A stretch of 64,000 nucleotides of DNA from Naematelia aurantialba (taxonomy: Eukaryota > Basidiomycota > Tremellomycetes > Tremellales > Naemateliaceae): NCBI GenBank assembly GCA_021527695.1, contig JAKFAO010000004.1, forward strand, positions 1-64,000. Direction: 5' to 3'. How positions within the stretch are numbered: the stretch's first letter is position 1; the number at the start of each line of letters is the position of its first letter. Below the pieces are notes generated by a model that did no database searches, was not told the DNA's origin, and was given only the letters and a program-made list of their open reading frames with translations. Positions 20,859-42,577 of the stretch are shown piece after piece. A program made the translations under genes and the position numbers.

Positions 20859-21426
20859 CTTGAGCGTATTGCCAGAGTTGGCGGCAGATAGTGAGGGAAG
20901 AGGTCCGCCATATTATCCTGTTCTCTTATCACTGAAGCGCCAGTAGTGCTTCTCAGATGCAAGTAGTATCGGCCGGACGACCGGCAACATCATTATTGTC
21001 GGATAGAGGCCGATGCGCTAGTAAGTTAGCGCCAGCAGCTACGCAGGGTCAAAACTCCTGTGCTCGATAAGAGCCTATGCTGGCTGGACGGCTGCTTCGA
21101 GGACAAGAGCTTGGACTAGGTGGGTTAGCTTGCCCGAATGACATGGATTGGCAAGTTCGGAGACATTCATATCCTTATGGTTTAGGTGAGATGCGGTCCA
21201 CGTGAAGCCGGAACGACGACGACCGATCGGGAACGCAGCCCGTGTTAAGTCTAAAACGCCCATTGTGCACTCACCAGGCCGTGGATGGGGGGAACAGCGA
21301 TAAGACCTCGTAGGCGCTTCCCGACGTGGGTGGGCAGGCGAGGGAAGAGGCTGGGTCGTGATAACTACACTACTGTTGCATCGTCGATTGAGCACTCTTG
21401 GCACATTTACATCATACGATACAAGC
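20859..21426. promoter_or_regulatory. Divergent GATA-rich promoter: symporter / amidase
   Basis: A 568-bp gap with three full GATA sites: CTTATC 20935-20940, GATAAG 21066-21071 and GATAAG 21299-21304, plus weaker GATAG words. A GGTGGGC near 21329 matches six of seven bases of the AGTGGGC word found in the next promoters. This fits joint control of both genes by nitrogen catabolite repression. Confidence 0.6.
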
Positions 21427-23593
21427 ATGACTGTTACATGGCAAGATAGGGCTGCGGCATATGTTGCGGCTCGCGACGAAGAACTCCCTGCCGACCTTCA
21501 ACTCACAAAGCCTCCAGCCTCGACAGTCCTCGATGTGCGAGATATACCACAGACAAGTGGTCTTCTAGGCGGTGTCGACCTTGAGATCACTGGCTCAGAT
21601 AGCATCGAGGGTCTCTTGAAGAACATCGCCGAGGGTACATGGTCAGCTTTGGAGGTGACGACTGCTTTCATCAAGCGGGCCGTCATCGCTCATCAATTAG
21701 TATGTCTACTCGTTCAGGAAGCTGGTGCTGAAGAGATTTAGACGAACTGTTTGACTGAAGTCTTCTTCAACAAAGCGCTCAAAAGAGCCAAAGAACTGGA
21801 CGAATATCGGAGCAAGACTGGTGAAACCGTGGGACCGCTACAGTATGTTCCAGCAGACAGGTCTAAACTGAGCACGATGAAGTGGGCTTCCAATCTCTCT
21901 AAAAGATCAAGTCGAAGTCGAAGGCGTCAATCAGTCCATGTGTTACGTTGGCTTTACTGGCCGAAAAGCGACCTACAATTCGGTGCTGGTAGAGATTCTC
22001 TTGAAGCAAGGTGTAAGTATTTGCCCTGATTCCCTCGCCAGCAGAGGCTTACAAGACGTCCGTAGGCTGTTCTCTACTGTAAAACGAACATGTCGCAGGG
22101 ATTGTGGTTCGGTGAAGGTTACAATAATCTCTTTGGGCGCACAACCAACCCGTTCAACGCGAGTCGGCAAGAATATCTCTTTCGTGTTCCGGCTGACTGG
22201 AGGGACATAGCGCAACCTCACATGCGGGGGCAGCAGTGGAGGTGAAGGTGCATTGATTGGACTGCGCGGGTCCTTGCTCGGTGTCGGGAGCGACCTGGGT
22301 GGCTCTATCCGTCTTCCGGTCAGTGGCCATTCAAGGCGTAGTTCATTGCCTGATGTTTCTTTAGGCAAGCTTCCAAGGTCTGTACTCGCTCCGAGGCAGC
22401 TACTCGCGGATCCCTTACTGCCGCACTTCGAACTCTTCGGAAGGTCAGGAATCTGTTCGTTCAGTGCTCGGGCCACTTTCGATTTCTATCGAAGGCGTCA
22501 AGCTTTTTGCACGCGCTGTCTATGACGGCAAGCCGTGGACCCTGGATCCATGGTCCCCTAAATTGCCTTGGAATGAGGCGGAATATCACTTGGTAGACCA
22601 CGGGGGCGAAGGAGGCAAGCTATGCTTCGCGTTTATGGAAGATGACGGGGTCGTCCGCCCCGTCAAGCCTGTAAGAAGGGCAATGGATATCACCAAAGAA
22701 GCTTTGATTCGTGCCGGACACAAAGGTCGGTCTGGCGTTCCTCCGCTGGACGGGCAGAGCTGACTGCGGAACCCAGTGATTCAGTGGCAACCATTCAAGA
22801 GCGCAGAAGGCGCAGCTCTCCTCGTACGTTCGCTTGGTTTGTGCAGCTGACGAGTGCTTTAGAGTGGGATCTACAATGCGGATGGAGGAGTGCGTTATGA
22901 AAATCTCACTCGGGGGAGAAGCTGATGCCCCAACTCCAGCGAGACCTCGAAACTCAACTTGCGCTGTCCGGCGAACCGAGACTGGGATATATTCTCAAGT
23001 CTGGTGCCCCCGAGTTGTCGACCTACGAGCTTTATCGGCTCCAGCATACGCGGACTGAATATATCAAGGAAGCGCTAGATCATTGGAATGCGACGGCATC
23101 TGAAACTGGAACGGGACGACCTGTAGACGGTATCATCTGTCCAGTCTCTGCCGGACCTCCCGGTCGTCACAATACCCCCAGGTGGGAGCCGCTTAGGCTG
23201 TTTATTTGCTACACTGACGAAGACTGTCTAAAGATACATTTACTATACTGGGTGGTGTAACCTGGCGGATTATCCCGCTTGCACCTTCCCAGTCACTGTA
23301 GTCGACCCCTCGACTGACACTTGCGACCAGCCCCAGGAGTTCCGGAACATGGACGAAAGGCGCCTCTTCGAAGAATGTATGTGTCGCAGAGAGGTCCCGC
23401 TGATATGATTAGATGACCCAGATTTCTTCAAGGGAGCTCCAATAGGTTTACAGGTGGTTGGTAGAAAGTACGAGGAGGAAGCGGTGATACGGTGCGATTC
23501 TTTGAAAGCGTCGTGGCGGTTGGCTGACATTATAGGATGACGGAGATCATAGATGTGGCTGTCAAGACTTTGTGTGCTCAGGTTGACGCCTGA
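21427..23593 (+). CDS. Amidase signature enzyme (acetamidase type), copy 1
   Basis: Once introns are removed the gene is intact. The Ser-cisSer-Lys triad is present: Lys in I-S-L-K-D-Q (near 21890), cis-Ser in G-G-S-S-G-G-E-G (near 22230), nucleophile in G-S-D-L-G-G-S-I-R-L-P (near 22290). An intron starting GTCAGT directly follows R-L-P and the next exon gives A-S-F-Q-G-L-Y. The last exon ends A-Q-V-D-A-stop at 23593. About 550 aa, no targeting signal, so cytosolic. The family hydrolyses amides to acid plus ammonia; the fungal acetamidase/formamidase branch fits best. An in-frame GTG upstream is not needed; the ATG at 21427 is preferred. Paralogue of the amidase at 37401. Confidence 0.88.
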
Positions 23594-24051
23594 TGGATCT
23601 GAAAGGCCAATAGTGCGGATGAAGCATGAGTTGAAGAGCTCGTGAGCTATCGAATGCATTGTGTAGCGTGTATGCCCCAACTGCTACTCATTTCGACCGT
23701 CTCTATACGCCAGAGTTCTCTGGCCTCCTAACACGAAACAATCTTGCCCTCGTTCTCCTCTTCAATTACCTGGAACTACTTCAAAGCCTTTAAATAAGCA
23801 GCTGGGTGAACTCAGGAATGGAACCAGACTAAGTCGGGCAGCGAAGGAATGGTTGTTGACCCCTTGCATGTTACTTTCCCCCTTGGACATACGGACAATA
23901 TGTCCTGGAATCCCGGTATACCTCTATTCGAACAAAAGGAATTATGCTCCCTCAGCCCAGCTTAGTGCTCCGTCGAGAACCGCATTCTGGTTTCGATGAC
24001 AGCTCCCATCCTCGCGCGTCTGATCCCCTCCTGCCGCCACACCCGCCTCCT
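23594..24051. other. Convergent intergenic region
   Basis: 458 bp between the 3' ends of the amidase and the MFS permease. I see no gene or regulatory motif beyond ordinary terminator context. Confidence 0.5.
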
Positions 24052-25965
24052 TCATCGCTCGTACCTGTACAAAGGAGACAAATCCCCCATGTCCGTTAAT
24101 TGCTGAGGCGTGTACTTGGCGTAGATCTCTTCCTCTGGTATCGCCGCCCTCCTCTGGTTGATCCTTCCCAGGACCCACCAATACACAATTGGCGTCACAA
24201 TGAGCCCCGCTGTGGTGAACGCAATCGTAAAGCCGAAGCCTGTCTTGTAACCGGGCGCCTCTCGGGTGAGATAAATGTTTGATCCCGCCACACCGCCGAT
24301 GTTGGAGAGAAAGACAGCGATGGCCAATGCAGCGGAGCGCTTCGTTTGTCCCGCCTGGTTAAGGGCAGCCCAGACGGCGATGCAAGATGTCAGGCAGTAC
24401 CCACCACCGCACACGAGCAGGGCACCAGTGAGGGCCAAGCCGGTGAGGCTCTTGTGGGTGACTGAACACATGCACATGATCAGGCCAACGAGGGCGATGG
24501 ACGCAGGAACGACGAGGACGAGCATGCGCTGGCGACATCGGTCAGAGATGTCTATGTACACATTAGCGCGTACAGTAAAGTGCACAAGACTACTGACATC
24601 CGTTGATGACGATACAAAAACCCGCAAAGACGTATGGCGGGACAGAAAGGAGCTGCGCATTGGCAGCGGAGAAGCCAAGGTTGGAGATGATTGTAGGCAA
24701 GGCAAAGGCAAAGCCGTAATTCAGGATACTGGTATTGATGAACATCCACCCAAAGATCCAGACGTGCCACGACTGCCGCATTAGCTGTGTTACAGCAGGA
24801 TATGACCCACCTTGAGAGCGTTCAGGTAGTCCTTGACCCGAAGTTCGTTCGAGTTCCCACTCTTGTCCCCCCCGTATGCAAACCTGTTCCGGAGGACGAG
24901 GAACTGCCGTTCCTCTTCCGTGAGCCACTTGGCCCCCTTCTCTGGTTTGTCCACCATGGTGAAGATTCCGATGATGGCAACTGTCAAGGAGACGAGCCCT
25001 TCCACAACGTAAATCCACCTCCAACCCCTGTATCCCCAAACACCGTCGGCCTGTCCAATCGCATACGCCAAGATGCCGCTAAACCCGCCTGACGTTGCGG
25101 CACCCAAGTAAAAGAGGGTCGCACGACTGTGCAGCTCATTCGGTGAATAGTAGGTCGAAATCGTGAATACCTGCATTCCTAAGCTTCATGGTCCAGACTA
25201 TAAGAATGGAAGTGGTTAGACGGGGAAAACGGATGCAATGGCTGTGGCAGAGGCCGAGTCATGTAGGGGAATGAGAGCGTTGTTATGTCCATAGATGATG
25301 TATGACATACCGAACTTGGATACATCCCGGCCTCGAGAATGCCCAAGACTACAGAGCTTTAGCTAGAGTCGAGGCGGCCGCATGGTGGAACGTACGCATT
25401 CGGAGTGAGAACCACTGAACACGGTTGTTGCACAGCCCGCCACCGATCAGGGAGAGGGAGACGCATATCATCGTTCCAGGCAAGACCCGTTTAGGACCGA
25501 AGCGTCGGAGCAGATAGCTCGCAGGGGGTCCACCAACAGCATACGCCAGGACTGCTTTGTCAGTTGTGCGCCGCCTCGCCGAACCCATGGTCTTACAAAA
25601 GATGGACAAGCCGACGTTCCAATCACTAGCAGTCATACCCATGTCTGCGATTGCACCGAACAGCTTTGCGTTGCCGACATTGCCGCGATCGATATAGGAC
25701 CATAAGACGTAGAAGAATATGGTCGGCAGCAAATGAAAGTCGACTTTACGCTGTAGAGTTTCAGCCCACCAAACGACACCAGGTAAGACACACTCACGGT
25801 AAGCTTCTTCAGCTTGTCCCCCTGAAACGTCTCTTGAAGGACGAGGTATTCGTTGTATGTCAAATTGTCCTCGACAGCCAGCTCGGTGATATTGACTTCC
25901 TGAACTGCCCCGATTGACTTTTCATCCTCGACTGACGGAGTATCAGACTGGGGCTTGCCTGCCAT
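24052..25965 (-). CDS. MFS permease of the Dal5/TNA1 anion:cation symporter family
   Basis: About twelve membrane segments over roughly 500 aa, split by several introns. Family marks: the first helix with L-W-S-Y-I-D-R-G-N-V-G-N-A, the loop with L-L-R-R-F-G-P-K-R-V-L-P, and W-R-W-I-Y-V-V-E-G in the sixth-helix region. The hydrophilic tail ends Y-R-Y-E-R. The ACS branch in fungi carries allantoate, ureidosuccinate, nicotinate, pantothenate, biotin and other small carboxylates with protons. The start at 25965 gives an acidic cytosolic N-terminus. Its promoter holds GATAAG and two AGTGGGC words. It is the likely entry point for the substrate of the neighbouring catabolic genes. Confidence 0.88.
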
Positions 25966-26230
25966 CCTGAACGAGTTGAGGGAGGATGATGGTGACTGAA
26001 TCCACGAAGCAGGGTTTTATAGACATTCCCTGAAGATAAGGTAGCATGCATCGAGGTATGATAGCCCAGAACATGTCGAAGATAGAGATAGGAGCATGGA
26101 CCAGAGTGGGCAATGTTTCAATGATTGTTCACTCTCTCCCGATGCGGTAGTCAGCCAGGGTCGCCCACTCTTTCCTATCAATGCCAATCACTATCTTTCT
26201 CGGGGAGATGTGAGTTGGGCATGAAATGCA
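25966..26230 (-). promoter_or_regulatory. Promoter of the MFS permease with GATA and AGTGGGC sites
   Basis: Contains GATAAG at 26035-26040, AGTGGGC at 26105-26111 and, on the other strand, GCCCACT at 26163-26169. The same heptamer recurs in three further gene-start regions downstream. Confidence 0.55.
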
Positions 26231-27286
26231 TCACCATCGTTTCTCTCCTCCCACGGCTGAAAGCTCTGCTGCAAACGCCTTGTTGAGTAGCATCGTGTCC
26301 ATCCCTATTGCCAACATATCGAAACCTTCAGACTTGCGCTTCTGAAACAGCTCAGGTGGCGCCCAACCCATCACACATACTCCTGCTTGCTTCGCAATCT
26401 GCCTCACATGGGCGACACTCGCCTCGACACGGGGGTCACTCATTGGTATCTGACCCATTGACTGGGCCAGATCATACGGTCCTATGAATATTGCGTCTGA
26501 AGCTCATGAGCTACACTGCCGCGATCCGGCACCTTGAACGTACCCAATCCGGGGACAGAGCAGATTTCCTCAATGTTCTCCACCCCAGCAACCGATTCGA
26601 TGAGAGCGATGATCATCGTGGCCTCGTTTGCTGTTACATAGTATTCCTCCAGTGTCAGCGTCTGACCGCGATAGGCATGGCGATGAAATGCTTGATGGGG
26701 AAGTTGCGCTCCGGTCCCCCTTGAGCCAATGGGGCCGTACTTCGCCCTGTTGACGATCATTTCTGCCTGCGCCTGTCCGGATGAGCGTTGATTCGTATCC
26801 TCGGAAGTCTCCCACCTTGCTCTCAACCATGGGGACGATGACGCCGTGAGCGCCCGCGTCGAGACACCGCTTGATCCAGAAGTGCTCGCTTCCCATACCG
26901 GGGATTCGGACGAGCTGCGACGTCAGACGTGTCCTGTGTTTCGACATGACTCTGGCTGACAGGGGACACCCCCAATCCAGAGATGGTATGGACCGCAGCA
27001 TACATGGACGCATCGTCGACATCCGAGTGTTCCGCGTCGAGGACGAGAAACTGCATCACATTCAGCCGAGCGTCATCATTTCATGCTGCCTCACGTCCAA
27101 ACCATGGCGAACCAGGCCGGCCAAGACTCGCACATGAGTTTGTCCTGCCGACGCGGAGAAGATGCCCAGGGGAATTCTGCCTTCTTTGACTGCTCCATAG
27201 AGATGGTTCACTTCGCAGACAAGATCACTTTTGGCCGGCATCGTGAGGCACCAGATGAGGAGGGATTGAACGAGTTCATTCGGCAC
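26231..27286 (-). CDS. HpcH/HpaI-family 2-oxoacid class II aldolase
   Basis: An (alpha/beta)8-barrel aldolase of about 280 aa. Visible marks: G-I-F-S-A-S-A near the N-terminus, L-D-A-E-H-S with the catalytic His, V-R-I-P-G with the pyruvate-binding Arg, I-E-S-V-A-G-V-E-N with the metal-binding Glu, and I-G-P-Y-D-L-A with the metal-binding Asp. The family cleaves 4-hydroxy-2-oxoacids (from aromatic or deoxy-sugar acid breakdown) to pyruvate plus an aldehyde. Two in-frame ATGs compete, 27286 and 27241; the second starts M-P-A-K-S-D and gives the usual N-terminus. Divergent from the TauD-type gene with a shared promoter holding AGTGGGC and GATAAG. Confidence 0.87.
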
Positions 27287-27678
27287 AATATGTGCATGAC
27301 TTCAATGACCGACTGAGGCTGCCTGGGCCAATGGTCGGCACTGGATAGCGAACAAGACTCGAGGCCCATTCCGTACATGGATTATTAGCTCGCTTGTCTT
27401 GTATTTTCCGGGTGGGCAGTTTAAACGGTACCTCTGGCCAATCGATGCACTGCAATTGGTTGAGAAGATTCATGCGCATTGCGTATCCCCACAGTGATTG
27501 TTATGCTAGTGAAAGTCTGAACATTGGAACGTTAGTGCGGGCGCATTGGCAAAAGTGGGCAGGAGGCAAGTGTGGCGCCCATCGTGATAAGCCAAGCTGG
27601 ATGCACCGCCTATTAGAGACTCCCAACCTCTATTTGGACCGTATCCCTCTGACCTGTCCACCTCACGCACTGACCAAA
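27287..27678. promoter_or_regulatory. Divergent promoter: aldolase / TauD dioxygenase
   Basis: 392 bp. Contains AGTGGGC at 27554-27560, preceded by four A, and GATAAG at 27586-27591, only 25 bp apart. The same pairing of a GATA word with AGTGGGC appears in the promoters at 34.2 and 37.3 kb. Confidence 0.55.
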
Positions 27679-29219
27679 ATGTCGACTGTCGCCACAATCA
27701 CGCTCCAGCAGCCCTCGACGGGCAAAGATGTTGGGCCGATGATGGCTACCCTGCGTCTCAGGGGAGACGAAGACTCCACCAAGGAGGCCCCAGTCAAGCC
27801 ATCGGTGCAGATCAAATCGAAGTTCTCCTCAGAAGCTAAAGAGGTATCACAGACCATCGCTAGTCACAGTCTCTTAGGGGAGGACGCAGACGCTCGAGCG
27901 GCGAGGGCGAAGTACCCCGCCTACTTGCCGGTGTGGGAGCATTCAAAATTCCCCCCCTGGGAGGAGATCCCTTACGTCGACGCTGGGACTCGCGCGACCA
28001 TAGATAAGCGACACCTCCTTGGTCCTGGGGTGACTAGAAAGGCTATCACCCCGCCCTTTGGAGAGGAACTCAGGGTCAGTGCCCGAGATGGTGATGGGGA
28101 TGTACTGATGGGACCAGGGCGTTCAACTGTCCAAGCTTAGTAAAGAGGCTCTTGACGACCTTGCCCTGTTGGCTGGAGAGAGAGGTGTGCTTGTATTGTA
28201 AGTCCTCTCAAACTTTTCAAGTGATTGGCTGAGGAGTCAGTCGCGATCAGGATTTCAAGGACATTGGCCCCGAGGCTCAGCTCGATCTGGTCCGTCACTT
28301 TGGCCGCTTGCATATCCACCCTGTGAGCTCCCGGCTTCTTACCAGTAGCACTCGGTCTAACGCGTGAAGACCATGGGGCACCCCGTGGGTTATCCAGAGA
28401 TGCATGTGGTCTACCGCGATCCTCAGGATACGACGCAAAAGTGAGTTGCAATCTATAAGAGGCTCGTCGTGCTCATAGTGCCCTAGACGGTACATCCTAC
28501 CAGGAGAGCTGGAACGATTCACTTCGACAGACTGGCACCTTGACCATTCTTCTGAGATTCAACCCCCCGGAATGACATTCTTCTGGAATCTTGAGACTCC
28601 CGAGGCGGGTGGAGACACTTGCTTCGTCTCCCTCACCGAGGCTTATAAAAAGGTATGCCGACTTGGCTTTAGACGATGGAAACCTGCTGACAGCTGTAAC
28701 AGATGTCCCCCGAATTCCAAGAGAGGATGATTGGCTTAAAGCTCGTCCATGACAACCACTGGATGGTAGAGAACTCGAGGAGGAACAATGGGCCTGTTCG
28801 GTTCGAGCCCAAGCGATACGAGTACCCTTTGGGTCAGTACAAATAATTCTCACAGTGCGGGACTGACGGCTTCTTTCAGTGCGAACACATCCCGCGACAG
28901 GTGAAAAGTACCTCTGGTTCGCACCCCGCGGCTTCTGCACTGGCTTTGCAGATCTTAAACAAGAGGAATCGGACTACCTTTTCCGCTTCTTGGGCGACTT
29001 GCTGGCCAAGAGTAACGATATCCAGCTAAGAATCCACTACGAACCAGGGACGGTTGTCGTCTGGGACAAGTGAGTCACAGTTGACCTGCCGGGAAAAAAA
29101 ACAGAGCTGATGTCCTTAGCCGTGTGGTTGCTCATACTGCTCTATACGACTTCCGTGGGGACGAGCGAAGGCACAACGTACGGATTGCAGCGATGTCTGA
29201 TGTCCCCAAGGGGCCGTAA
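27679..29219 (+). CDS. TauD/TfdA-family 2OG dioxygenase (sulfonate dioxygenase type)
   Basis: The first exon encodes a low-complexity leader and the conserved V-W-E-H-S-K-F-P-P-W segment. Later exons give F-G-R-L-H-I-H-P, then the iron motif D-W-H-L-D-H-S (near 28540), G-M-T-F-F-W-N, and at the end V-V-A-H-T with the distal His and D-E-R-R-H-N-V-R-I with the 2-oxoglutarate Arg. A final intron with acceptor CCTTAG (near 29119) is needed to reach the distal His. Fungal members (Jlp1-like) oxidise taurine and other sulfonates or aryloxy acids. About 400 aa, no signal peptide. It may oxidise the imported cluster substrate; the actual compound is unknown. Confidence 0.87.
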
Positions 29220-29528
29220 AATGATGACCCATCTTATATGGCTTGAATGTATACGTTGTTTGAACAAGCAACTGGACGTAGAGGGTGGAGCCATGCAACC
29301 AGTCTATACCCCTCTGGGGGGGGGCTCCCCTCCTCACCCTGCCAGAGTGGTCAGTCATGACTTGCCGCTGGTCTTTTGCCTAGCCAGCAGCGGTCCCCGA
29401 GACGAACAAACTGCCACAATGGGAGAGAGACATGGTGCCACAAACGTCTTACTCTCCACTTGGAATATCCTTATCATCATTTGTTTACTTTGCAAGCTGT
29501 CATTCGTACAGATGCATCTCACACGACC
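29220..29528 (+). promoter_or_regulatory. Upstream region of the C2H2 regulator
   Basis: 309 bp between the TauD stop and the regulator start. It contains an 8-G run near 29318-29325. I find no exact AGTGGGC or GATAAG here, unlike the neighbouring promoters; the closest word is GAGTGGTC. Confidence 0.4.
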
Positions 29529-32500
29529 ATGACAGCCGCAAGCAAGCATCGCTCGCGGGTCTCTATCAAAGCCTATGCTTGTACAGAATGTGACAAAAGC
29601 TACGATCGGAGGGACTATCTTCGTAGACATCAGATAAATCGTATTGTCCTTCTTTCCAAACACCCTGCCTCCAGAGCTGACAGAGCTGCAGATGATCGAC
29701 CGAATGTCTCATGTGCAGCCTGCGGAGCGGATTTCAGACGCACCGATGTTCTCAAGCGGCATATGGAGCGGTATTGTGCTGGCGCTCAGGGTGTCGCGGA
29801 GAAAGGTCCCCGGCGGCGCAGGAGGAAGAGGAAGTCACCTTCGGGAACTGCTGGAACACCCTCGGACACCCTCGATGACGAGGCACAGGAGCTCGGCTTG
29901 GAGCGTTCCAGTGCCCCTCCGTCGTCGCCATTGAGGGCTTCCACTGACCCTCCTCAACTGGTAGACTCGATTTCCTTTCCATTTGCCCAAGATACTTTCC
30001 CGCAGCTACCTCACCAAGAGCTACCCCCAGATACTGGAGAGATTCCAATCGCAACCGATAATTCCTTCGCGAACACTCTCGATATGTATGGAGCATACAA
30101 TGATGGCGGTCAGAAAGAATCGGTTAGCGACTTATTTGATTGGTTATGTGCTGCCGGTCAATCATCCTCAACAGGAGATATCGACATGTGCGCACCGGCA
30201 TCCTTTCCTTACGACTCCTTCGTCTCAACCTTGGCTGGTCCATCATTGGAGATCCCCGCCAAGTCGACTCTTCCAATACCTTTGAATGGTTCGACACCTG
30301 GTGTGCATATCTCACCGACTACACAGGACAACACCCTCCAGTCAGCCATGAATGCCCTACGAACGGATGCAACACTCTTCTCTCTGCCTTCGGCGGCAGA
30401 GCAACCATCTGTTGTTTATGATCCTGACCCATCGGGTTGGACTGCCCCAAACATCTCCACCTCCTCACCGCGACAGGACACTCTTTCTCCTCAAGCCCGC
30501 GAAGATCTACTCAATCTGTTAGGCGTGAGTGTCACGCAGCTATGATTCAAGCTAATGGTTCGTAGGCGGAAAGTCGAGCCGCTTTGGAGCCTGCTTTCCC
30601 CCTCTCTCAGATGAAAATTTGTCTCGAGCTGTATTTCATGCAAGTCTACTCCATCGCCATGTCGGTTGCTGACGACATTCCTAGTCACGCTACACCCATG
30701 TATCCCATCGTACATCAAGCTTCGCTCCCATATCGCACTCTACCTAGACATTTACTCCTCATGCTTATCTTCCTCGGATCCGCGCATTCAGACGACAAGG
30801 CCGCTTTTGACGCCGCCATTCAGTCGTCTCGTCGACTCAGGAATTTCGTGCTCGAAGTGAGTTTGGAGTGTTGCCACGCCAGCTAATTGACCTTTAGAGA
30901 GTGGAGCAGGAGAGTCCCGTAGCGATTGCCGATCTACAGACGATATTGCTGCTTGATCATTTCTGCCGGACATATTGCCCTCTTAAAATCCATGATGCTG
31001 CGCAGGTTTGTCTGCATCCGCTTCCTGGCTGACGAAGGCAGATCTATCATTCCCCGGCCATGTCCATTGCCCAAATGGCCGGTGTCTTCATGTACTCGTA
31101 AGAGTTCCGGCACTGTACAACGCATTTCTGACGCTCTGTAGTCCTGAAGATCGACAGGACCGGAGACCTGTCGCCGACGATGTGCTGGCGTGGTTGGAAT
31201 GGGTGGAAGAAGAAGAACGCATACGGATAGGATGGCATGCCTTTGTCTTAGATGCCCAGAATGCTGCCTTGTACAGGTATGCGTCTTCAGTTCGCCCAAC
31301 GGGCCTTGCTGACACCACTCAGACAGAACTTTTTGGCATGTGGCTTTCTTCCAGTCCCCTCTCACACTGACCTTGGCCCTCTCACAGCTTCACTGCATCT
31401 CCATTGATCTCCCTTTTCCCGCCGATGAGCGGATCTGGGAAGCAACCGACGTGTCCGCTTGGGCCGAGGAGATCTCTCTCGTCCGGCCGGCCCCCACATT
31501 TCGTCGAGCACTGCGAGAACTCATCGAAAAGGGTAAAATCCCGCAGAGCCCCAACGAGCAGGCGCTATTCATCATCCTTCACGGGCTGTTCTCGCTATCT
31601 CTCACTCTTCGCTGGCGGGATCTCAGTCGACTGAGCCTATTTTCCGAAGGCAAGCTTAATCGGTGGAAGGCGTCTCTGCGTCAGAGCTTTCAGGTATGGA
31701 TGGAACATGTCGAATCGGAGTTGCGAGGACCGTCGTTTGAAAATCGGAGTGGACTGCAAATGCCGGTCTATTGGGCAGGACTGGTGTTTGCCCATCTTGG
31801 TGAGAAAGATCATGGGCTGTGCGATTCGGCGTAATGACCGATAGGTACTATATCATTCGACACTGATACGACTCAGCTTCGTATTGCTGCGGGAGCATGG
31901 AGTTAGGAATCCCTTGAAAGAGATGGCACTAGCTGACTTGTCACAGCGATCGCTGGTCGACCAATTGCACCTGCGGAGAAGAACCGTGCCAATTCATATA
32001 TGAAGCATTGGGCTCGATCTGAAGATGGAGCTCATGCTTACGTTGCTGCTATCCGATGTAGGTTAAAATTTGGGAAAGCGAAGCTCACTCTATAGTACTT
32101 AATCACCTGCTGCCTCGCAGTGAAGGTGAGAGGTTCCGCGTGGCTTCAAACTTCATATCATGGGCCGCTGTGAGTACAGCATCTTCGACGGGCACGGTAC
32201 TGATGGAGGCCTCCAGTATATTGCATCCCGTGGGTATCGATGTTTTCCCCAGCCTCCTCGCTGATCCAGCTAGTCGTTCTTTGGGCATATGCGTATAATA
32301 CCGAGGGTCCTGGGCTGTACCACGAAAATACTAGCGTGGCGCCCATCTCACCTCACCCTTCTGACCCTTCGACATTGAGAATCGAGCCGTACATTGCTGT
32401 TCGTGACGCTTACATGTTTCTCGACCGCATGTCAAAGCTCGAAGATTACTCAATCAAACCTGTGGCTGATGCCAAGGGCAAAAACAAATGTGCAGGCATC

Positions 32501-32602
32501 TTGGCGTATTCAGCATACATGGCAGGGAGTATGAAGCGCGGTCGGATGGAAGAGTGTCATGGTGTTCTGATGGGGATCTTGGCGACGCAGCTTCGGTCAT
32601 GA
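29529..32602 (+). CDS. C2H2 zinc-finger plus fungal_trans transcription factor
   Basis: Two tandem fingers lie at the N-terminus. Finger 1 is C-T-E-C ... R-R-H-Q-I-N-H; its last His codon is completed by a 51-bp intron (donor GTATTG near 29642). Finger 2 is C-A-A-C-G-A-D-F-R-R-T-D-V-L-K-R-H-M-E-R-Y-C. A basic R-R-R-R-K-R-K stretch (a likely nuclear signal), a long Ser/Pro-rich middle and a C-terminal fungal_trans-like helical region with many introns follow, to the TGA at 32602. Start at 29529; the upstream frame is not needed. About 880 aa. This two-finger architecture (C2H2 followed by fungal_trans) is common in basidiomycete cluster regulators. It lies in the middle of the catabolic set and is the best candidate regulator. 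Confidence 0.85.
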
Positions 32603-32701
32603 TGTTTGATGGAGTGTAAGACATTGTTGTATGCACGAGATTATTGGTATGAAGAACCTGAACGCCATGCTACATGCTGGTGGAGCACCCCTTGGGACGT
32701 T

Positions 32702-34113
32702 TTAATACCCCTTCTCCGGATCGACTGCATTCAATGCACGCCCTCCCGACCGTATCCGCTTGACGTTTGCAATCAAGAGATCGGCCACCGCATCACCATG
32801 ACCTTTGAAGTCGCCACTCGTATGGGGGGTGACTATCACCCGCTTGTGCGATAGAAGCGGATGACCGTCAGGCAGGGGTTCTGGGTCCGTCACGTCTATA
32901 GCCGCGCCGGCCAGCCCGTTGGGCTCATTCAGCGCAGACAGCAGATCGTCTGTCTCCAGTCAGATGACGTGCCGGCCTTGACGTATGAACACATACTCAC
33001 CAGAGCGGACTAGATCTCCCCGGCCGACGTTGATAAATATTGCTCCTGGAGGAAGCAGGTCTGGTCCCCGGTCAGGTCTCACCATTATCGAGATTTCGTT
33101 GCTCACCGAAATGTTCCACATCCAACATGTACCTCGTAGCAGGTGTCGAAGGCAAGCTCGCCACGAGCACATCACACCTCGACAGAAATTCACTGAAAGC
33201 TGCGGGATCAGAGGTACTGTACCAAGCCGAAGGAATGAGACCTTCTGGGTCGCCAGTGCCAGGAACGATATACTAAACTGGTCAGCACATACTTGTCCAT
33301 CTAGGATGTACTCACTCCATCGTCCACCACACGCTGTCCGCGAGAGTTTGCAGCGATGATATTGACATTCATCGCCTTGAGTACACGGGCAGTCTCGCGA
33401 CCGATGTGCCCGTACCCCTCAGTGGGTCAGTATAACTGCACAGGCAAGACGAGAAAGGCAAATTAACGAGCAGGCCCGCTGTCTTGCCGTACATCGAGGT
33501 GCTGGGCAGGTTGCCTTCCGGTAAGAGCGGTTCTCCCAGCTCTTTCTTCTTGAGAAACCGTTTCTCGTTTCGTGAGAGCAGGATTTGCTGATGATGGAAC
33601 ATGTAGACTGCCTGTCGTCAGTCGGCCATCTTGAGCTGGAGAGATTTTTTAGCTACGATTGACAATCTGAGCAATGACATATTGAGGGATAGAGTATACG
33701 TGGATGCCTGTCGACTCATCAGCATTTTGCGTATCACAACCAGCAAGGTCGCCTTACCAGAAGATCCGCAGAGTGTGATCTGCTTTCTGGCGCGTACATC
33801 TCGGAAAAAGTCACCTTTCAGAGCGTAGTTGGCGCCCGCTATGGCTTGTTAACCCTTTGCAGCTGGAGGCATTCTCGTAAGGCCCACCTGAAGTCAACTG
33901 GATCAGCCTTAACCTCGGCATGTCCTCAAAGGAGACACCGGGGACGGGGCCAGCCCAACCGCAAAGCCAGACCTCGGCATCCTCGAGTGCTGCTCTGGGG
34001 ATCTGGCCATCGGGGTGGTAGTGAACTGTCCGGAAAACTCGCTTGAGGTCATCGAGCTTGGTCGGGGAGACTGTCACAGTGGACAGGAGGGTTTCCGAGT
34101 GTTCATAGGTCAT
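32702..34113 (-). CDS. D-isomer-specific 2-hydroxyacid dehydrogenase
   Basis: NAD-binding core with G-Y-G-H-I-G (near 33400). Catalytic residues are in place: Arg in N-V-G-R-G-D-L-V-R, Glu in D-P-E-P-L-P, His in T-P-H-T-S-G. The N-terminal catalytic half includes L-C-G-W-A-G. An intron of about 50 bp (donor GTGAGT near 32999) joins L-V-R-S to D-D-L-L-S-A-L-N-E-P. About 360 aa, cytosolic. The family reversibly reduces 2-oxoacids to D-2-hydroxyacids with NAD(P)H. It may handle the 2-oxoacid made by the aldolase or the amidases. Convergent with the C2H2 regulator (99-bp gap), divergent from the PhyH gene. Confidence 0.87.
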
Positions 34114-34484
34114 TCTGCGTCACCTTACGTTTGTCGTAGCTAATGATGCGTATGCTGGCTTTTGCGTACGTTGCGTCCAATCACTGAGGCCAGTATGGAA
34201 CACACCGCCTGCCATCAGAGACGGGCTCATTCGCGGTCGTTATCTCTTATCTGGTATGTGGCACGCTAACAGGGTGCCTCCCACAGTAGGCGGATGGACA
34301 AAAGTGGGCATCTCTAGATAGTGCGATAGCCAAATCGCCACTCCACTCTTGTCAGTGTGGGCTGTAGCATTTGTTCTCAACAGGCCCTAGCTAGTGAACA
34401 CAAGTATACTTAAAGTTCTTATGCAATGAAAGCGATGGGGATCCTCCACGAAGCCGCGTTCTAAGCGCCAGTGCGTCTACCAAG
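34114..34484. promoter_or_regulatory. Divergent promoter: hydroxyacid dehydrogenase / PhyH
   Basis: 371 bp with CTTATC at 34246-34251 and AGTGGGC at 34303-34309, preceded by AAA as at 27551. Both words fit the pattern of the neighbouring cluster promoters. Confidence 0.55.
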
Positions 34485-35644
34485 ATGACCATTCAGTACC
34501 CCAACGATGCGCCTCTTGTGATCCGACTGTCTGATGAGGAGCGCGATTCCGGCGAGATCACAGACGAACACTTGTACGATGCTGTGGATGCTCTGTTCAA
34601 CGACGGCTTTGTGGTTCTCGAGAATGGGATCAAGGATGAGCTGGTCGACAAGATGAACGCGAGGATGCTGGAAGATACCCAGAAACAGCTCAACGGGAAG
34701 GGGGAGGTTTTCTTCAAGCAAGTCGCACCCGAGGGCTGGACACGCCTCTCACTGACGAGTGCAGCAAACTCCACAAAGGGGCAGCCAAACACGGCGCGAG
34801 GGTGGGAGGCAATATGTCGCAACAACCACCCATGGAATCGGGTTCGTCTTATCCCGCTGACTGGCGAGATCTTGACTGAATCGTCACAGAATGGCTGATG
34901 CCCGAGTTCTACGCCAATCGGATCACCGCTCGCGTCCTCGAGAGCATCCTCGGCCCCAAACCAGAGCTGCGCTATATCCGTGCCAATGTTCTCATTCAGA
35001 CTTCTACTCGCCAGAACGTCCATGCCGACGTGAGGTTCAGATATCCCACCCATCCCTTTTGTATCACACAGAACGTGCCTCTGATCGATTTCACGGTGGA
35101 GAATGGCGCAACCGAGCTATGGCTGGGTACGCAAAACCATGGAATCGGGTACCACATGGGCTTAGGGAAGCCGTTGATCTCTGAGGCTGCGCTGGAGGAG
35201 AGGAGGAAGGTTCGCCCTCCAATCCAGCCGTCGGTCAAGAAGGGCTCATTACTCCTTCGCGACATGCGCATGTGGTGAGTGTCGCTCCTCGCACGTGATA
35301 GACTCACTGAAGTCTGAAGGCACGCCGGAATGCCCAATCCCACTGATAACGTACGTACGATGCTGTCGTTCTCCTTCTGGGCACGGTAAGTGGACAGTAT
35401 CAGCTCAGTACTTTGGCTGAGCAGCAGGTGGTTCAAAAACAAGGCCGCTGTCCCCATGGCCGAGTCTCTACGACCGACCGTCGAGGCATTGGAAGAGCAT
35501 GCCGGTATCACCATTGGTGCAGACTTTGTCCCGGACGAAGGGTATGACTACCTGAATTGCAAGTTCAACAACATTTTCACATCGGACCTCAAGCCAGAGC
35601 AGTGGGACAGTATAAAGGACATCCGGATCGAGGAGGACGCTTGA
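34485..35644 (+). CDS. Phytanoyl-CoA dioxygenase (PhyH) family 2OG oxygenase
   Basis: The N-terminal half holds D-G-F-V-V-L-E-N-G, the usual PhyH opening. The iron ligands are H-A-D in N-V-H-A-D-V-R-F (near 35030) and a distal His in R-M-W-H-A-G-M-P-N (near 35320), split by an intron after M-W. The protein has about 330 aa and ends E-E-D-A-stop. PhyH-family enzymes hydroxylate acyl-CoAs, amino acids, alkaloids or fungal metabolites with Fe(II) and 2-oxoglutarate. No peroxisomal signal is seen at either end, which argues against phytanoyl-CoA itself. It is the third structural type of 2OG oxygenase in the window. Confidence 0.88.
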
Positions 35645-35899
35645 TCTGAGCAGGGTCGTTGGAGGACATGCATGTGCAATTGTTTGACTAAATGAGGACA
35701 CCTGACCGGCTCACTCCTCGCCATCGTCAGCTTACTTCGAAACGGTGCACTGGGTATTGTGATACCATTTGTGCGTGAATGGACGATAACCCCTCGACGC
35801 CATAGCCACGAAGTATGGACGTTGCATGAGTCTCAAGATGGCTCGTGTCTGTCGACCTTCTTGCTTCAGTCGTTGAGGCAGAAAGTATGGGCACCTCTG

Positions 35900-37201
35900 C
35901 TATTGGGAAGATCGCTTCTCCAAGTCGAACAAAGCTTCCACGTGCGGTACTATCGTATTCTCCAAGCTCGACCAGCGTCTGATCCCAAGGTCTCTCTCGG
36001 CCTTGCTAACATCGACTGTATAACAGTCATATCTCGGTGGATTCTCCGTTACTTCCGGGAGTCTGTGCGCGTGTTGCGGGAACCGACGGCGGATGATGGA
36101 GAATATTTGGGCATAGGTGTATTCCCCTGATATCTGAGAGCTGTTAGCTTCTATCGGCCCTTGAATGCAGACACATACCATTAGATAGCGTTGATTGCTT
36201 GCGACCGGATAGAGGAAGGATTTCATGCAAACCTCGGCAGCGTCGTGAACGTTCGTAAACACCGGCCAACGGTCTTCAGGCATGTGTGACTTTGAGTCGA
36301 GGATGTGGTGCCATAAGCCTATAGATGTTGGTTTGGATCACAGAGTGCGAAGGAGACGTACGGTTCGAGGCAGCGTCCATGTCCTCGAAACACCCCCAGG
36401 CTTGAAAGACCGGTCCGTAGAGGGTACCTGGGAATTTATGAGCTTGCTTGCTTCCATGTTGTATGGATACTCACAAGGACAAAGCGTGACAACGTCAAAG
36501 CTGTGGGAATTACTTGATCGCCAGTCGGCGATGAGTAGCTCGCCCGCGGTCTTAGAGTAGTCTCCCAATTCAGCTCGGCCTGTAAGACTTCGCAACTCAC
36601 TATAGGCATAGCCTGGGAGCGTCTCCCCCCTCTTTTTCAACGACGCCAATGCCTCTTCGTCTTGTACGCATGTCTCATCATAGGTTATCCCTTTCGTCTG
36701 ATTGGTGAAATCGGCATCGTGTTGGAATACAGCAGCCACGGAAGAGATGTGGATGATCCTCCTGATCTTGGGCTCTTTGGCAGACGCAGTGAGGACGTTT
36801 GTAATGCCTTTGAGGTTCTGATCAATCACCTCTGCGCCGCCCTGCAAAGATCAGCATAACACGCCGAGAATGGCCTAGCTACCCACCAGCTTGAAAGTGA
36901 ATGGCCCCGCACAATTGAAGACCCCTTCACAACCTCGGAACGCCTCATCATACACATTGTCTCCCTTGTGATCGGCGACTACTACCCACTCGATATTAGC
37001 CGATGGCCATCGCTGCACCATCGCTGCAGCTCGGGACGCATCGCGTGTGGTCGCTCTCACGCGAAACCCCGCACGCGCAAGGATAAGCGTGACATGGGAT
37101 CCTAGCTGTCCGGTCGCGCCGGTGACGACGACGAGGGGACCACCAGCAGGTTCCGGAAACGACAACGGATCGATGGGTCCGCGCGTGGATCCGAAAGGCA
37201 T
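35900..37201 (-). CDS. Extended SDR, NAD(P)-dependent reductase/epimerase
   Basis: N-terminal V-V-V-T-G-A-T-G-Q-L-G-S-H is the extended-SDR nucleotide site; I-I-H-I-S-S-V-A-A-V is the Ser region and Y-S-K-T-A-G-E carries the catalytic Tyr and Lys. The C-terminal half contains V-F-T-N-V-H-D-A-A-E-V, as in dihydroflavonol-reductase/3-beta-HSD-like members. About 350 aa. The family interconverts alcohols and ketones with NAD(P). The start at 37201 is the only one giving the Rossmann motif in place. It shares a 199-bp divergent promoter with the second amidase. Convergent with the PhyH gene. Confidence 0.86.
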
Positions 37202-37400
37202 ACTGATGTATCTTGGTCATTGCTATTGAAACGGATCCCAAAGTTCTTATACGGCTGGCTAGTCCGTGAGGGGAAGCGGAAGGGTAGAAGTGGGCAGATA
37301 GCAAGTGCAGTGGGCGGATGTTGATAACAAGATGAATTGGGCCTGACGGCGTATTCCTGCAGCGAGGTTCACAACATCTTCAACAAAGGCGAGCTGCGTA
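37202..37400. promoter_or_regulatory. Divergent promoter: SDR / amidase 2
   Basis: Only 199 bp, with two AGTGGGC copies in the same orientation at 37289-37295 and 37309-37315 (20-bp spacing, two helical turns), an AGATAG at 37296-37301 and GATAAC at 37323-37328. This is the densest example of the shared promoter word. Confidence 0.6.
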
Positions 37401-39443
37401 ATGTCTTGGGAGCAACTGTGTCGTCAAAAGCAAGTCGGGCTTGCTGATCGCATACCCCAGGAATGGCGAATAGAGCCGGTGGACCCCAGTACGCTCGACG
37501 TTCGAGCCATCCCGGCCACCTGCGGTATCCTCACACGGCTCGAGATTGAAATCACCGAGCTCGACGAAGTGGATGATTTGCTACATAAGCTCCGGACGGG
37601 GGCTTGGTCTTGTGTGCAGGTGACGAAGGCGTATCTGAAACGAGCGCTGATTGCCCATCAACTGGTGAGCTCAGGTCGCGTAACCACGGGCTGATACCCA
37701 GGTCAACTGTTTGACCGAGTTCTGGATCGATGATGCCCTTGCTAGGGCACAGGAGCTTGACGAGACCTTAGCAACGTCTGGCCCGTTAGGACCACTCCAT
37801 GGCCTTCCTATCTCGCTCAAAGATCAGTGAGTGCAACTTGTACTCAACCAAGCTGGAAGCTCTAATGTACAGATTTCACGTCAAAGGAAAGGAGCTGAAC
37901 ATGGGCTTCGCATCGTGGATCGGACAGATCTCCCCGGCCGATGCGGCCCTGGTGACTCTGCTACGCAAGGCTGGAGCCGTCATCTACACTCGGACAAATG
38001 TGCCGCAGACCCTCATGAAACCCGAGACCGATAATCACGTCTACGGAGTGACGGTCAATCCTTGGAATCGGAATCTGACCCCAGGCGGATCGAGTGGTGG
38101 CGAGGGTGCACTCTTGGCTCTGAAGGGCAGGTCGGTGTCGATCAGTGGCTCGTGCTGATGAGCAGTCCTCTGGGTGTTGGAACGGATGTGAGAAGCGCCG
38201 GTTCATTTTAGACGTTGGCTGACTAGTCTAGGTAGGAGGATCCGTGCGAATACCTGCCTCCTTCAATGGTCTGTACGGTATAAAGCCCGTATGTAGGCGA
38301 GTCCCGTACGCTGGGGCAGCAAACACCATGATGGGCAGCGGTGAGTGTAATCCAAATGTGTTGCAGGCTGATATTTGTTACAGAGGGGATGGAGAGCTCA
38401 ATTGGACCTCTTGCACGTACCCTCAAGGGCTGCGCGACATTTCTTCGGGCTGTCGCTTGGAGCCAACCATGGGATCTCGATCCAAATGTCAACTTCATGC
38501 TGTGGGATGAGGCGTAAGCTGTCTGCCTCGAATAAAGAAACCACTCATCCACCAGGGCGTATCGTTTGAATCATCTGGAAGAGCGTGGTGGACGCCTGTG
38601 CTTTGGATACTTTATACACAACGGGCATATGCCCGTCCTCCCGCCAGTCCGCCGAGCGCTCGAGATCACCATCAAGGCACTGCAAGCTAAGGGACATACC
38701 GGTACAGCACAAGTCGTCCATGATAGAGACGACTTTCTCATAGACTCAGTAATCCCCTGGGAAACAGTCAATTACCCGGAAATGATCGACCTAGCGACGA
38801 GCCTCTATGCTGCAGGTGGTTCTGCCGATTTTGCCGAGACTATGAAAGCTTCTGGAGAGGTGCGTGAGCGCAAGTGTCTGGCTGATTGAGCAGCCTCGAC
38901 GAGAGGGTGTGAGAATGCGTCCTGACCCAGGGCTCTCCGTGTATCAGTACTGGCAGCTTGTGAAGAGGAGAAACGAGCTTGTGAGTTTGCCATGTGCACC
39001 ATAGCATTGATTGCAGAGAGCGGAACACTTGCGTCAGTGGATGAAGACGGTATCTGTCACTGGCTCAGGACGACCGATAGATGGGCTCATCTGTCCTGTG
39101 GCTCCTTGGTCGGCTCCACCTCTAGGCAACAACATCTACGGAGCATGCACGACGGTTCAGAACCTGCTCGACCTCCCGGTTAGTGTGCTGTCCAGACAAG
39201 GAACTGCTCGCTGAGCGCACTTAGTCCGTTACGATACCCGTTACGACAGTAGACGCGAGCCTGGATGGACCTCAGACACTTCGCGCCCCTGTGAACGAGA
39301 TGGACGCGTATCATTTGGAGCGGTACCAGGCAGATCTCTTCGAGAACGGGCCAGTAGGGATACAGTTGGTTGGCCGCCGAAATCGAGAGGAAGAACTGTT
39401 GGCTGTCGCGACCGTAGTAGATCAGGCAATCCGGGCAATGTGA
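37401..39443 (+). CDS. Amidase signature enzyme, copy 2
   Basis: Same architecture as the amidase at 21427. Catalytic Lys in I-S-L-K-D-Q (near 37820), cis-Ser in G-G-S-S-G-G-E-G (near 38100). The nucleophile motif G-T-D-V-G-G-S-V-R-I-P is split by an intron (donor GTGAGA near 38188, acceptor TCTAG near 38233). The end is A-I-R-A-M-stop at 39443. Both amidases begin with an R-x-I-P-x-T-x-G-x-L segment and both carry an intron directly after the codons A-H-Q-L, so they descend from one ancestor. Divergence between them is large, suggesting different amide substrates. Confidence 0.87.
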
Positions 39444-40683
39444 GAACATTCAGGAGCGGGGTAGTGACCGAGCATTCCGACGTTCTTGCTGTGTCTTGCT
39501 AATAATATATAAAGGGTTGGGCAACTGACACCCTCGCGATCTTTGCGCTCTCGCTGTACACGTCCCTTTGCCCCGATCTCCAAATCACAGGGAGCGGGCA
39601 AAGAAGCTTTGTGGCAGCTTTGTGGCCAGCTGAACATGAGAAGGAAGATTATTCGATAGCGATGGCTTTCGGCAGCCAGAGGGCGCCTAATGAAGCTTGG
39701 TACAGGTCGTCGTGATATTGTAGAGCCACCATTCTGACAAATTACCCCGAGTGCCGCGGATTGACAGAATCCTCTTAAGATCGTGAGCATTGTCAGGAGC
39801 TACTTCTAGCTCGGCAAGCTCTGCTCCACAATGGCCTAGTTTCAACGACTGACTGTCCGTCGTTTTGCCCGGCCTGAAGTGATAGCAAAGTTGGGTTTAC
39901 CACCTGAGAAGATCCATGGGCATCTTGTACTACGGATATCATCCGCAGGCATACTGCCATCCCGAGCGACCACGGGACCGCCGCTCGGAGACAGATAAGG
40001 AACAGATTCGCGCTCAAGGGTGTTTGTCCAAACCAAGCGGCAGCATGCGCGATACAGCTCTATGCCATGAGTCTCGTGAACCAAACGTAGTGTCGGAAGA
40101 GCAGTCCGAACAGGGAGATAGCTCAGCTTTCGATCTGCCTCGGTCCTTGCTCATATCTCATCGACCTGGCGGCGACATGCTTCTGACTTTTATCGTCACT
40201 CATCTCTCCCTTTGCCCTCTTCTTCCCAAACTCATCCCCGCGCCTCTGCGCCTGGGACTCTGCTGGTTCCCCTCCTCCCCCCGCTGCAGAGGGACGGCGC
40301 ACCGTGCAGACGAGTGGTGTTCAGTCCCGACGATATGCCCAAATGAGGCCAGTTTTGGAAAGATCAGCAGGCATAATCCCGAGCTCAACCGTCTTCTCGC
40401 CCGCCTTTTCGCCCGAGTGTCCTTGGAACCTATGAGCAATGGCGGATAACCCAATCGAGACGGCGAAAGCATTGTCCATTCTGTCGGTGACATCTCCCGA
40501 ATGATAGATTGGACAATCTCGACATGTCTGTATCAAAGAGCATAAAGAGCGTAGCAATTTTGATAGACCCAAGGAGCAAGTCTTTTCTACACCGGTGACC
40601 CACCTGGCGGACACCCGTGGCACCGGCGACAACCTCTCTTACGGGACTCGTACCAAGAGACACCAAAACACCTCGTTGTCAAC
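39444..40683. promoter_or_regulatory. Long intergenic region upstream of the sugar-type transporter
   Basis: 1,240 bp without a gene I can support. An AT-rich TAATATATAAA stretch lies near 39501-39511 and a GATAAG at about 39994. Open frames on both strands reach about 180 codons but lack recognisable domains. A short minus-strand frame ending near 40321 has moderately protein-like composition and could be a relic. Confidence 0.4.
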
Positions 40684-42577
40684 ATGGTCGCTGGCGCTGT
40701 CACCAAGAGTGGTCTCGGCCGACTTGATGGATTGTGTCAGTGGCTCTCACCGCGATGGTTTCCTCAGCTCACACACCTGCAGCCAACAACACCCACCGAC
40801 TCTGGTGGAAAGACCCTGGACTGCTCAGGCTGGACATTATCGTGACGTGTATCTCGATTGTCCAGGTTACCGGTGGTTATGATCAATCCGTAAGCATCGT
40901 AATAGATTGGATGTCGACAAGGGGCTCACATTTGCTAGCTCATGTCGAGTTTGCAAGCGCTCGACACTTGGCTCGAACCCATGGGCAATCCGGATTCATC
41001 TCTCATCGGCACCATCTCTATTCTTATGACGGTTGGAAACATCGCGTCTACGTGGCCAGCACAGTTCATCTGCGACCGATATGGACGTCGTTGGTGTGTC
41101 GCGTTCGGGTCCATCTTCTGCATTGCTGCGGCTCTGGTTCAGACTTTCGCCAACTCTTCGGGACAATACATGGTGAGTCAACGGATGCATCTGAAGGACA
41201 TAGCTTATCTCTGTTGTTAGGCTGGGCGTTTCCTCTTGGGCTTCGGTGTCACCCCCTCGATTGTCGGTGCTTCGAGTCTGGTGAACGAGCTGTCACATCC
41301 CCGGCAGAGACCGTACATTGGTGCCGCGTACAACGTTATCTGGTATCTTGGTGCGATCATCGTCGCTTGGCTGTGCTATGGTCTCAAGCTGCACATCACC
41401 TCCAGCTGGCAGTGGCGTGCCCCCTCGATCGTCCAGCTGGTGCCCTCGATCTTCATTCTCGTCGCCATTTTCTTCTTCCCCGAATCGCCCCGTTGGCTCA
41501 TCTCGAAAGGCCGCTCAGAAGAGGCTTTCACCATCCTGGCCAAGTATCATGCCAACGGCGACCGAGATGATGAGCTTGTCAGGGCCGAGTGAGTGACCTT
41601 TGACAAGTCGCACGCGTGTAGGCTGTATGCTGAGCGTCATGCTTCAGGTTCCAGGAGATTTCGGAGACAATCAAACTGGAAATCGAGACCCAAAATGGTG
41701 TCACTTGGAAATCCCTGCTGGCAAATCCTGGCAACCGTCGCCGTCTCCTCATCGTCGGTATTCTTTCCACCATCAACGGCTGGACGGGCCAGAGCATTAT
41801 TTCGTACTGTCAGTCACCTTTGTATGCTCCCCCCACGTGGAGTATTTGTTGACTGGAGCTACAGACCTTACGCCCGTCCTCAAGGCCGCCGGTATCACTT
41901 CCTCTCTGCAACAGCTTGGTCTAACAGGAGGTAACTCGATCTGTAACTTCTTCATCGCTGGGTTCTCGGCTTGGCTCTCGGGCAAGATCGCTCGTCGGAC
42001 CCAATTCTTCATCAGTTACGGTGGTATGGCGGTCACGCATGTCATCATGACCATCCTGTCTGCGATGTACGACAAAAATCCTTCGGTCCCGATGGGCAAC
42101 GCCATCGTTGCTTTCCTCTACCTCGAGTCGGGCTTCTACAACGTAGCCATGAACCCCTTGGTCTACGCCTACCCGACCGAGGTGCTGTCTTTCTCGATGC
42201 GAGCCAAGGGCCTGTCTTTCTTCCTTGGCGTGTCGTTCCTCTGGTCCCTCGTCACCAACTACGCCAATCCTGTGGCCCTTGACAAGATCGGATACTGGTA
42301 CTATGTCTTTTTCTGCTTCGTAAGTCCTGGAACCCCGTTGTCGTCGTAGTCTACCGATGCTGATCGCGAACAGTTGTACGTCATCGAGATTGCGCTCATC
42401 TACTTCTACTTCCCGGAAACCCGAGGACGCACATTGGAGGAGGTCAACGAGATCTTCGACGGTCCCACCGACCGAGTGAATGTATTGCCCGAAAGGGAAA
42501 CAAGCGACGAGAAAGACGAGAAAGAGACGGATGAGAAGGTGACGCTCGCTCAAGTCGTTCCCAGTGTCGACAAGTAA
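40684..42577 (+). CDS. MFS sugar-porter family transporter (hexose/lactose-permease-like)
   Basis: Twelve hydrophobic segments with the sugar-porter signatures: D-R-Y-G-R-R-W after TM2, P-E-S-P-R-W-L before the central loop, and P-E-T-R-G-R-T-L-E-E-V at the end. The central loop and acidic tail (E-K-D-E-K-E-T-D-E-K) are typical. The ATG at 40684 needs a short first intron (donor GTCAGT near 40737, acceptor CTGCAG near 40780). About 530 aa, plasma membrane. Some members of this branch carry quinate, galacturonate or disaccharides, so the substrate is open. It is the last accessory-type gene before the housekeeping block. Confidence 0.9.

Follow-up and report, generated by a model that had tools for sequence, protein, structure and literature searches.

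The first 64 kb of a Naematelia aurantialba contig (JAKFAO010000004.1, here C10; C4, C14, C15 and C1 denote further contigs of the 21-Mb genome), referred to below as the window, hold a cluster of catabolic-type genes around a gene for a C2H2 zinc-finger regulator. Several promoters of this cluster repeat the hexamer GTGGGC, a candidate operator that recurs at the loci of related regulators elsewhere in the genome. Genes were modelled with our own splice-aware gene finder trained on the genome, the cluster genes were refined by hand, and families were assigned with Pfam, which gives the following order.

21427..23629, plus strand: amidase 1 (PF01425)
24052..25965, minus strand: MFS transporter, modelled as two pieces (PF07690 on the larger piece)
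26231..27241, minus strand: HpcH/HpaI-type aldolase (PF03328)
27679..29219, plus strand: TauD/TfdA dioxygenase (PF02668)
29529..32602, plus strand: C2H2 and Fungal_trans regulator (PF00096 on finger 1; PF04082)
32702..34113, minus strand: D-2-hydroxyacid dehydrogenase (PF02826)
34485..35644, plus strand: PhyH-family dioxygenase (PF05721)
36027..37201, minus strand: SDR/epimerase-type reductase (PF01370)
37401..39443, plus strand: amidase 2 (PF01425)
40755..42577, plus strand: sugar-type transporter (PF00083 on one exon), with a promoter that holds seven HGATAR words and no GTGGGC
20912-21426, 25966-26230, 27242-27678, 29220-29528, 34114-34484, 37202-37400 and 39444-40683: the seven cluster promoters

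In the regulator model, exons after 31802 are only partly modelled, and an intron at 29641-29691 splits finger 1. The closest relatives of the TauD protein come from Tremella, Cryptococcus and Cryptotrichosporon. Positions 4299-5631 of the window hold another dioxygenase gene, of the DIOX_N type by a Pfam match to its first 60 residues.

Promoter words of the C10 cluster

GTGGGC occurs nine times in five of the cluster promoters.

21330..21335, plus strand: GTGGGC in the amidase 1 promoter, 97 bases 5' of the ATG, preceded by G
26105..26111, plus strand: AGTGGGC in the MFS promoter, 140 bases 5' of the start of the MFS gene
26163..26169, minus strand: AGTGGGC in the MFS promoter
27412..27417, plus strand: GTGGGC, second copy in the aldolase/TauD divergent promoter
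27554..27560, plus strand: AGTGGGC in the aldolase/TauD divergent promoter
34303..34309, plus strand: AGTGGGC in the hydroxyacid dehydrogenase/PhyH divergent promoter
34357..34362, plus strand: GTGGGC, second copy in the hydroxyacid dehydrogenase/PhyH divergent promoter
37289..37295, plus strand: AGTGGGC in the SDR/amidase 2 divergent promoter
37309..37315, plus strand: AGTGGGC, second copy in the SDR/amidase 2 divergent promoter

A first-pass annotation of this DNA had drawn attention to the heptamer AGTGGGC in four adjacent promoters. Its six positions and strands (26105, plus; 26163, minus; 27554, 34303, 37289 and 37309, plus) are accurate, and our gene models and Pfam assignments place all six copies in intergenic DNA 5' of the genes it named. 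The four promoters are not strictly adjacent, since the regulator's own promoter, which lacks the word, lies between them. The heptamer is indeed enriched but slightly over-specified, the core being GTGGGC; the copy at 21330 had been missed because the base before it is G rather than A, and the accompanying list of other copies in the window omitted one at 21881, within the first amidase gene. Each of the four promoters thus has two copies of the hexamer and the amidase 1 promoter has one; the amidase gene at 21427 belongs to the GTGGGC set too.

The background was formed by 81 non-convergent intergenic regions with a total of 51.6 kb, drawn from 20 genome stretches of 10 kb each and from the remainder of the window. 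At this intergenic rate, 0.12 copies of AGTGGGC are expected in the four promoters that hold six, close to the chance expectation of about 0.15 given in the first-pass annotation, and the similar density in random promoters that the annotation had named as refuting its reading is not seen (5 of the 81 background promoters carry the heptamer). Over all seven cluster promoters, six AGTGGGC compare with 0.32 expected and nine GTGGGC with 1.23.

Recurrence at related regulator loci

A protein search with the C10 regulator returned 12 matches at four loci, namely itself, C4:3383-5661, C14:1444550-1445395 and C4:40228. All three other listed loci were taken in and none was dropped. The look for the word at related clusters that the first-pass annotation had proposed was thereby run within the genome, and GTGGGC lies near all three.

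The strongest of these cases is C4:1-20 kb, which was picked by protein homology alone after the core GTGGGC had been fixed on C10. Its five promoters contain 11 copies against 1.28 expected (p = 1.2e-7; this and the following Poisson p-value ignore clustering of sites). Four copies lie in the dioxygenase/permease promoter in a span of 51 bases, five lie before the reductase gene and two are about 550 bases before the regulator gene. Among 1870 hexamers GTGGGC ranks second, after TAGATA, itself a GATA word, and the heptamer AGTGGGC, with 4 copies against 0.34 expected, ranks 10th of 6552 words. The genes here encode the regulator relative, a dioxygenase, a cytosine/purine permease, an aldo-keto reductase, an MFS-like transporter (recognized by eye) and an amidase. 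The best solved relative of the dioxygenase is thymine dioxygenase 5c3p (E 4e-70); thymine is not thereby settled as the substrate, because HxnY of the hxn pathway is likewise structurally closest to thymine-7-hydroxylase (PMC9304392). The locus lies near a contig end and is a candidate pyrimidine or nicotinate-type catabolic cluster. The starts of C10 and C4 also have an open reading frame in common (window 239-1108 and C4:252-686, the last 144 translated residues identical), a repeat near contig ends; a copy of AGTGGGC at 638 lies inside this repeated frame and recurs at C4:216.

At C4:37.5-46.5 kb there are 5 GTGGGC against 0.49 expected, three of them within 36 bases (C4:42649-42684), in the company of a C2H2 gene, a purine/cytosine-type permease of the same family as at C4:1-20 kb and a hydantoinase-type gene. 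The C14 locus has 1 copy against 0.11 expected. Pooled over their nine promoters, the three other loci have 17 copies where 1.9 are expected (p = 2e-11), and GTGGGC heads the 1831 hexamers present there.

As a test of specificity, all four loci were analysed together. GTGGGC occurs 26 times in 16 promoters (3.2 expected), in 12 of the 16, and is again the top hexamer, while its 18 one-base variants stay near background in the same promoters (1-7 copies each against 2.8-6.0 expected). Two or more copies are found in 8 of these 16 promoters and in 2 of the 81 elsewhere. The base immediately 5' of the core is A or G in 20 of the 26 copies, the base two before is A in 16, and the base immediately 3' is A or G in 23; beyond this the flanks vary, copies lie on both strands, and nothing but the six-base core is constant.

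GTGGGC is absent upstream of three amidase loci (1.75 kb of intergenic DNA; three of five amidase loci without a listed regulator relative) and around two C2H2 genes with different contact residues (3.25 kb; two of three other C2H2 hits). These controls together give no copy in 5.0 kb, where the background rate predicts 1.8 and the rate seen at the regulator loci 15; they rule out a high rate and not a weak one, because few copies are expected at background. Position near a contig end is not in itself the cause, since two of the amidase control loci lie within 20 kb of one and lack the word. An AGTGGGC at the control locus on C15 (C15:304264) lies inside a predicted gene.

Genome-wide searches with longer or paired words revealed no regulon that clearly adds to these. 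With one mismatch allowed, GCAAAAGTGGGCA matched 43 places and its reversed control 26; with at most three, AGTGGGCAGNNNGCAAGTG matched 350 against 304. Pairs of AGTGGGC numbered 13 against 38, pairs of GTGGGC 249 against 383 and triples of GTGGGC 28 against 99, the triples including many tandem repeats as well as C4:7870 and C4:42649. For the GTGGGC pairs, the search for a further regulon covered the first 100 places. Rfam gave no family at gathering score. Our literature search did not find AGTGGGC as a promoter word, and GTGGGC together with a fungal zinc finger matched other subjects only.

Regulator fingers and GATA words

The regulator gene is linked to the cluster genes by its position in their midst, and its product has two N-terminal C2H2 finger sequences, of which Pfam scores finger 1 only and the second ends in Cys. 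In such fingers the base-contacting positions are usually given as -1, 2, 3 and 6. The residues at these positions are identical in the four regulators (R, D, Y, R in finger 1; R, D, V, R in finger 2); in two aligned ascomycete relatives the finger 1 contacts differ in both and those of finger 2 also in one. Fungal_trans (PF04082), which is also part of the architecture of HxnR, the regulator of the hxn pathway, is found in three of the four proteins, those of C10, C4:3-6 kb and C14. The best relative of the C10 regulator is I303_106965 of Kwoniella dejecticola (38% identity over 57%), which has Fungal_trans and, in its deposited model, no zinc fingers. That model may have missed them, because the fingers of the C10 regulator sit in intron-split exons. 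The locus tags of the PhyH and TauD relatives in Kwoniella show no linkage to the Kwoniella regulator.

The published AreA word HGATAR (PMC8478523) is likewise frequent in the cluster: the seven C10 promoters contain 25 against 6.5 expected, a number that 0 of 2000 dinucleotide shuffles reach. The first-pass annotation's remark that each of its four promoters has a GATA-type word holds, with HGATAR counts of 6, 1, 4 and 2. The form GATAAG is placed as follows.

20925 and 29470 and 34246, minus strand; 21066, 21299, 26035, 27586 and 39994, plus strand: GATAAG in the cluster promoters

HGATAR is also enriched at C4:1-20 kb (19 against 6.8 expected), that is, at two of the four loci. It is further raised between the genes at 11.0-20.2 kb (11010-20198 of the window; 17 against 9.1), where 4.7 kb of intergenic DNA contain no GTGGGC, so the two signals are separable. 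Two genes adjoin this HGATAR-rich DNA.

12474-14694: purine/cytosine-type permease
15785-17565: FAD-dependent oxidoreductase

The nitrogen-controlled stretch therefore seems wider than the GTGGGC cluster.

The arrangement resembles the hxn (nicotinate) regulon of Aspergillus nidulans. As set out in three papers (PMC5746545, PMC8478523, PMC9304392), that regulon combines a linked Cys2His2 regulator (HxnR) with a general GATA factor (AreA), divergent promoters and clustered nitrogen-source genes that include an amidase, a 2-oxoglutarate dioxygenase and MFS transporters, and HGATAR words stand alongside the regulator's sites, which are predicted rather than determined (PMC8478523). Two differences stand against this likeness. 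The predicted HxnR word, GHGGGG, is not enriched in the C10 promoters (8 against 6.5), and the C10 enzymes are an HpcH aldolase, a hydroxyacid dehydrogenase, PhyH and TauD. The nicotinate hydroxylase HxnS is not among the scanned cluster proteins, and no genome search for it was made. The C10 cluster appears to work by analogy with the hxn regulon. Regulators of the C2H2 class that serve a single pathway are described as unusual in fungi (PMC5746545), and HxnR is the best studied of them. AmdX, which regulates the acetamidase gene amdS in A. nidulans, is a further C2H2 protein tied to an amidase gene (by a title cited in PMC5746545 and PMC3998117). The two-finger C2H2 domain of the C10 regulator also matches the fingers of yeast ADR1 (PDB 2adr; E 1.5e-6). 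The site that ADR1 binds is G-rich and differs from GTGGGC.

GTGGGC as a candidate operator and its alternatives

We consider it probable, from sequence comparison, that GTGGGC is the operator of a pathway-specific C2H2 regulator family that acts together with a GATA nitrogen factor. The first-pass annotation had suggested an operator bound by the two-finger protein, with GATA sites alongside; this reading is supported by enrichment and by recurrence at related loci, with the core shortened to GTGGGC, whereas binding by that protein is something we infer.

Under the usual finger code, fingers of the types RRDYLxR and RxDVLxR read GTG and then GNG, giving a site GTGGNG. GTGGGC fits this prediction at all but the last base, and the final C is left unexplained; GTGGNG as such is not enriched (9 against 9.0 at C10, 7 against 9.4 at C4). 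Either finger 1 would depart from the code or something else would fix the last base, and it is chiefly here that the tie of the word to the protein is incomplete. Further points weigh on the same side. The regulator's own promoter at C10 and that of the sugar transporter lack GTGGGC, and at C4:1-20 kb two promoters of five lack it as well. HGATAR shows no excess at C4:37.5-46.5 kb (3 against 2.6) or at the C14 locus (0 against 0.6). Fungal_trans was not found in the gene models at C4:40 kb, which matched the query through the fingers, and this gene is for that reason only a probable member of the family. The C14 copy and the C4:42649 triple had surfaced in earlier motif searches and so were not blind finds.

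The misfit at the last base, together with the position of GTGGGC amid enriched GATA words at two loci, would fit a real operator read by another factor, for instance a global nitrogen or carbon regulator of such catabolic clusters, with the linked C2H2 proteins binding elsewhere. We regard this as unlikely. The word is present at all four loci listed with regulator relatives, whereas the three control amidase loci, which have HGATAR upstream, have no GTGGGC in 1.75 kb (about 0.6 expected), and it is missing from the GATA-rich DNA at 11.0-20.2 kb. For a carbon regulator, the CreA-type word is SYGGRG. With 10 copies against 13.6 expected in the C10 promoters it is not enriched, and a CreA/Mig1-type operator was rejected.

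That one word among thousands simply happens to repeat is far less probable still, although the C10 data taken alone leave some room for it. Over the whole window AGTGGGC is at chance (10 copies against 9.1 expected), its 2631 copies in 21.0 Mb correspond to 1.4 expected per 11.2 kb, and C1:548-560 kb also has six, five of them inside predicted genes. Density by itself was therefore discarded as evidence, since six copies within 11 kb are unremarkable; what is unusual is that they lie in promoters. Nor is the heptamer promoter-enriched in general, as the 20 random genome stretches have 20 copies in 121.6 kb of coding, 6 in 60.5 kb of intergenic and 1 in 17.9 kb of intron DNA. To correct for the choice of word, all 6552 words were scored in 1000 sets of real intergenic DNA of matched lengths. 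A best word equally extreme by total count arose in 2.1% of the sets when all seven promoters were taken and in 0.3% when six were taken. For the first-pass four, a biased choice because those promoters were picked for carrying the word, none of the 1000 sets gave one. By presence the values were 1.0%, 0.5% and 0.1%. With all words and all seven unselected C10 promoters, the corrected value is thus only 0.02, a further point against the operator. By presence, the best word for the seven promoters is CGAATGA, not AGTGGGC; it occurs in five of the seven (20912-40683). Under a cruder first null, without a low-complexity filter (simple repeats left in) and with regions re-drawn, 32-62% of sets did as well by total count and 0-8% by presence. 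What speaks against chance is the replication: the core had been defined on C10 before it turned up 11 times against 1.28 at the homology-chosen C4:1-20 kb, and 17 times against 1.9 in the nine promoters of the other loci.

Functionless remnants of duplicated promoter DNA or of a repeat are just as improbable: 27554-27572 and 37289-37307 do share AGTGGGCAGNNNGCAAGTG, with 16 of 19 bases alike around the word (an exact match in the genome only at these two C10 sites, from which the pattern was built), and the C10 and C4 clusters hold related genes, but the 26 copies have varied flanks and mixed strands around six constant bases, and the related regulators are only about 42-44% identical to each other in matched parts.

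On the operator reading, GTGGGC, usually in the form [AG]GTGGGC[AG], would be read by an activator encoded at 29529-32602. Binding would involve one to several copies, which mostly lie 60-400 bases 5' of the start codon and in many cases in a divergent promoter shared by two genes. When its inducer is present, the protein would turn on the amidases, dioxygenases, aldolase, dehydrogenases and transporter; activation is favoured here over repression. Adjoining HGATAR sites would allow a GATA nitrogen factor to restrict expression to nitrogen shortage. The same operator would serve the related regulators at C4:3-6 kb and C14:1.44 Mb, and probably that at C4:40-41 kb.

More tentatively, and with nearly even balance between yes and no, a family of at least three and probably four paralogous C2H2 regulators may have kept GTGGGC while taking over different nitrogen-scavenging gene sets: the amide/hydroxyacid cluster, the cluster with the thymine-dioxygenase-like gene and nucleobase permease, and the permease/hydantoinase locus. 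The first finger (RRDYLxR or RRDYRDR) would then read a triplet ending in C, against the standard code.

The sequence thus yields a six-base site that is replicated at other loci of the genome and linked to four regulators whose contact residues are identical, which makes both the operator and the possible exception to the zinc-finger code directly testable. The co-occurrence of GTGGGC and HGATAR is also a handle for finding further genes of these regulons. For the fungus, these data point to a small family of switches for the use of unusual nitrogen compounds.

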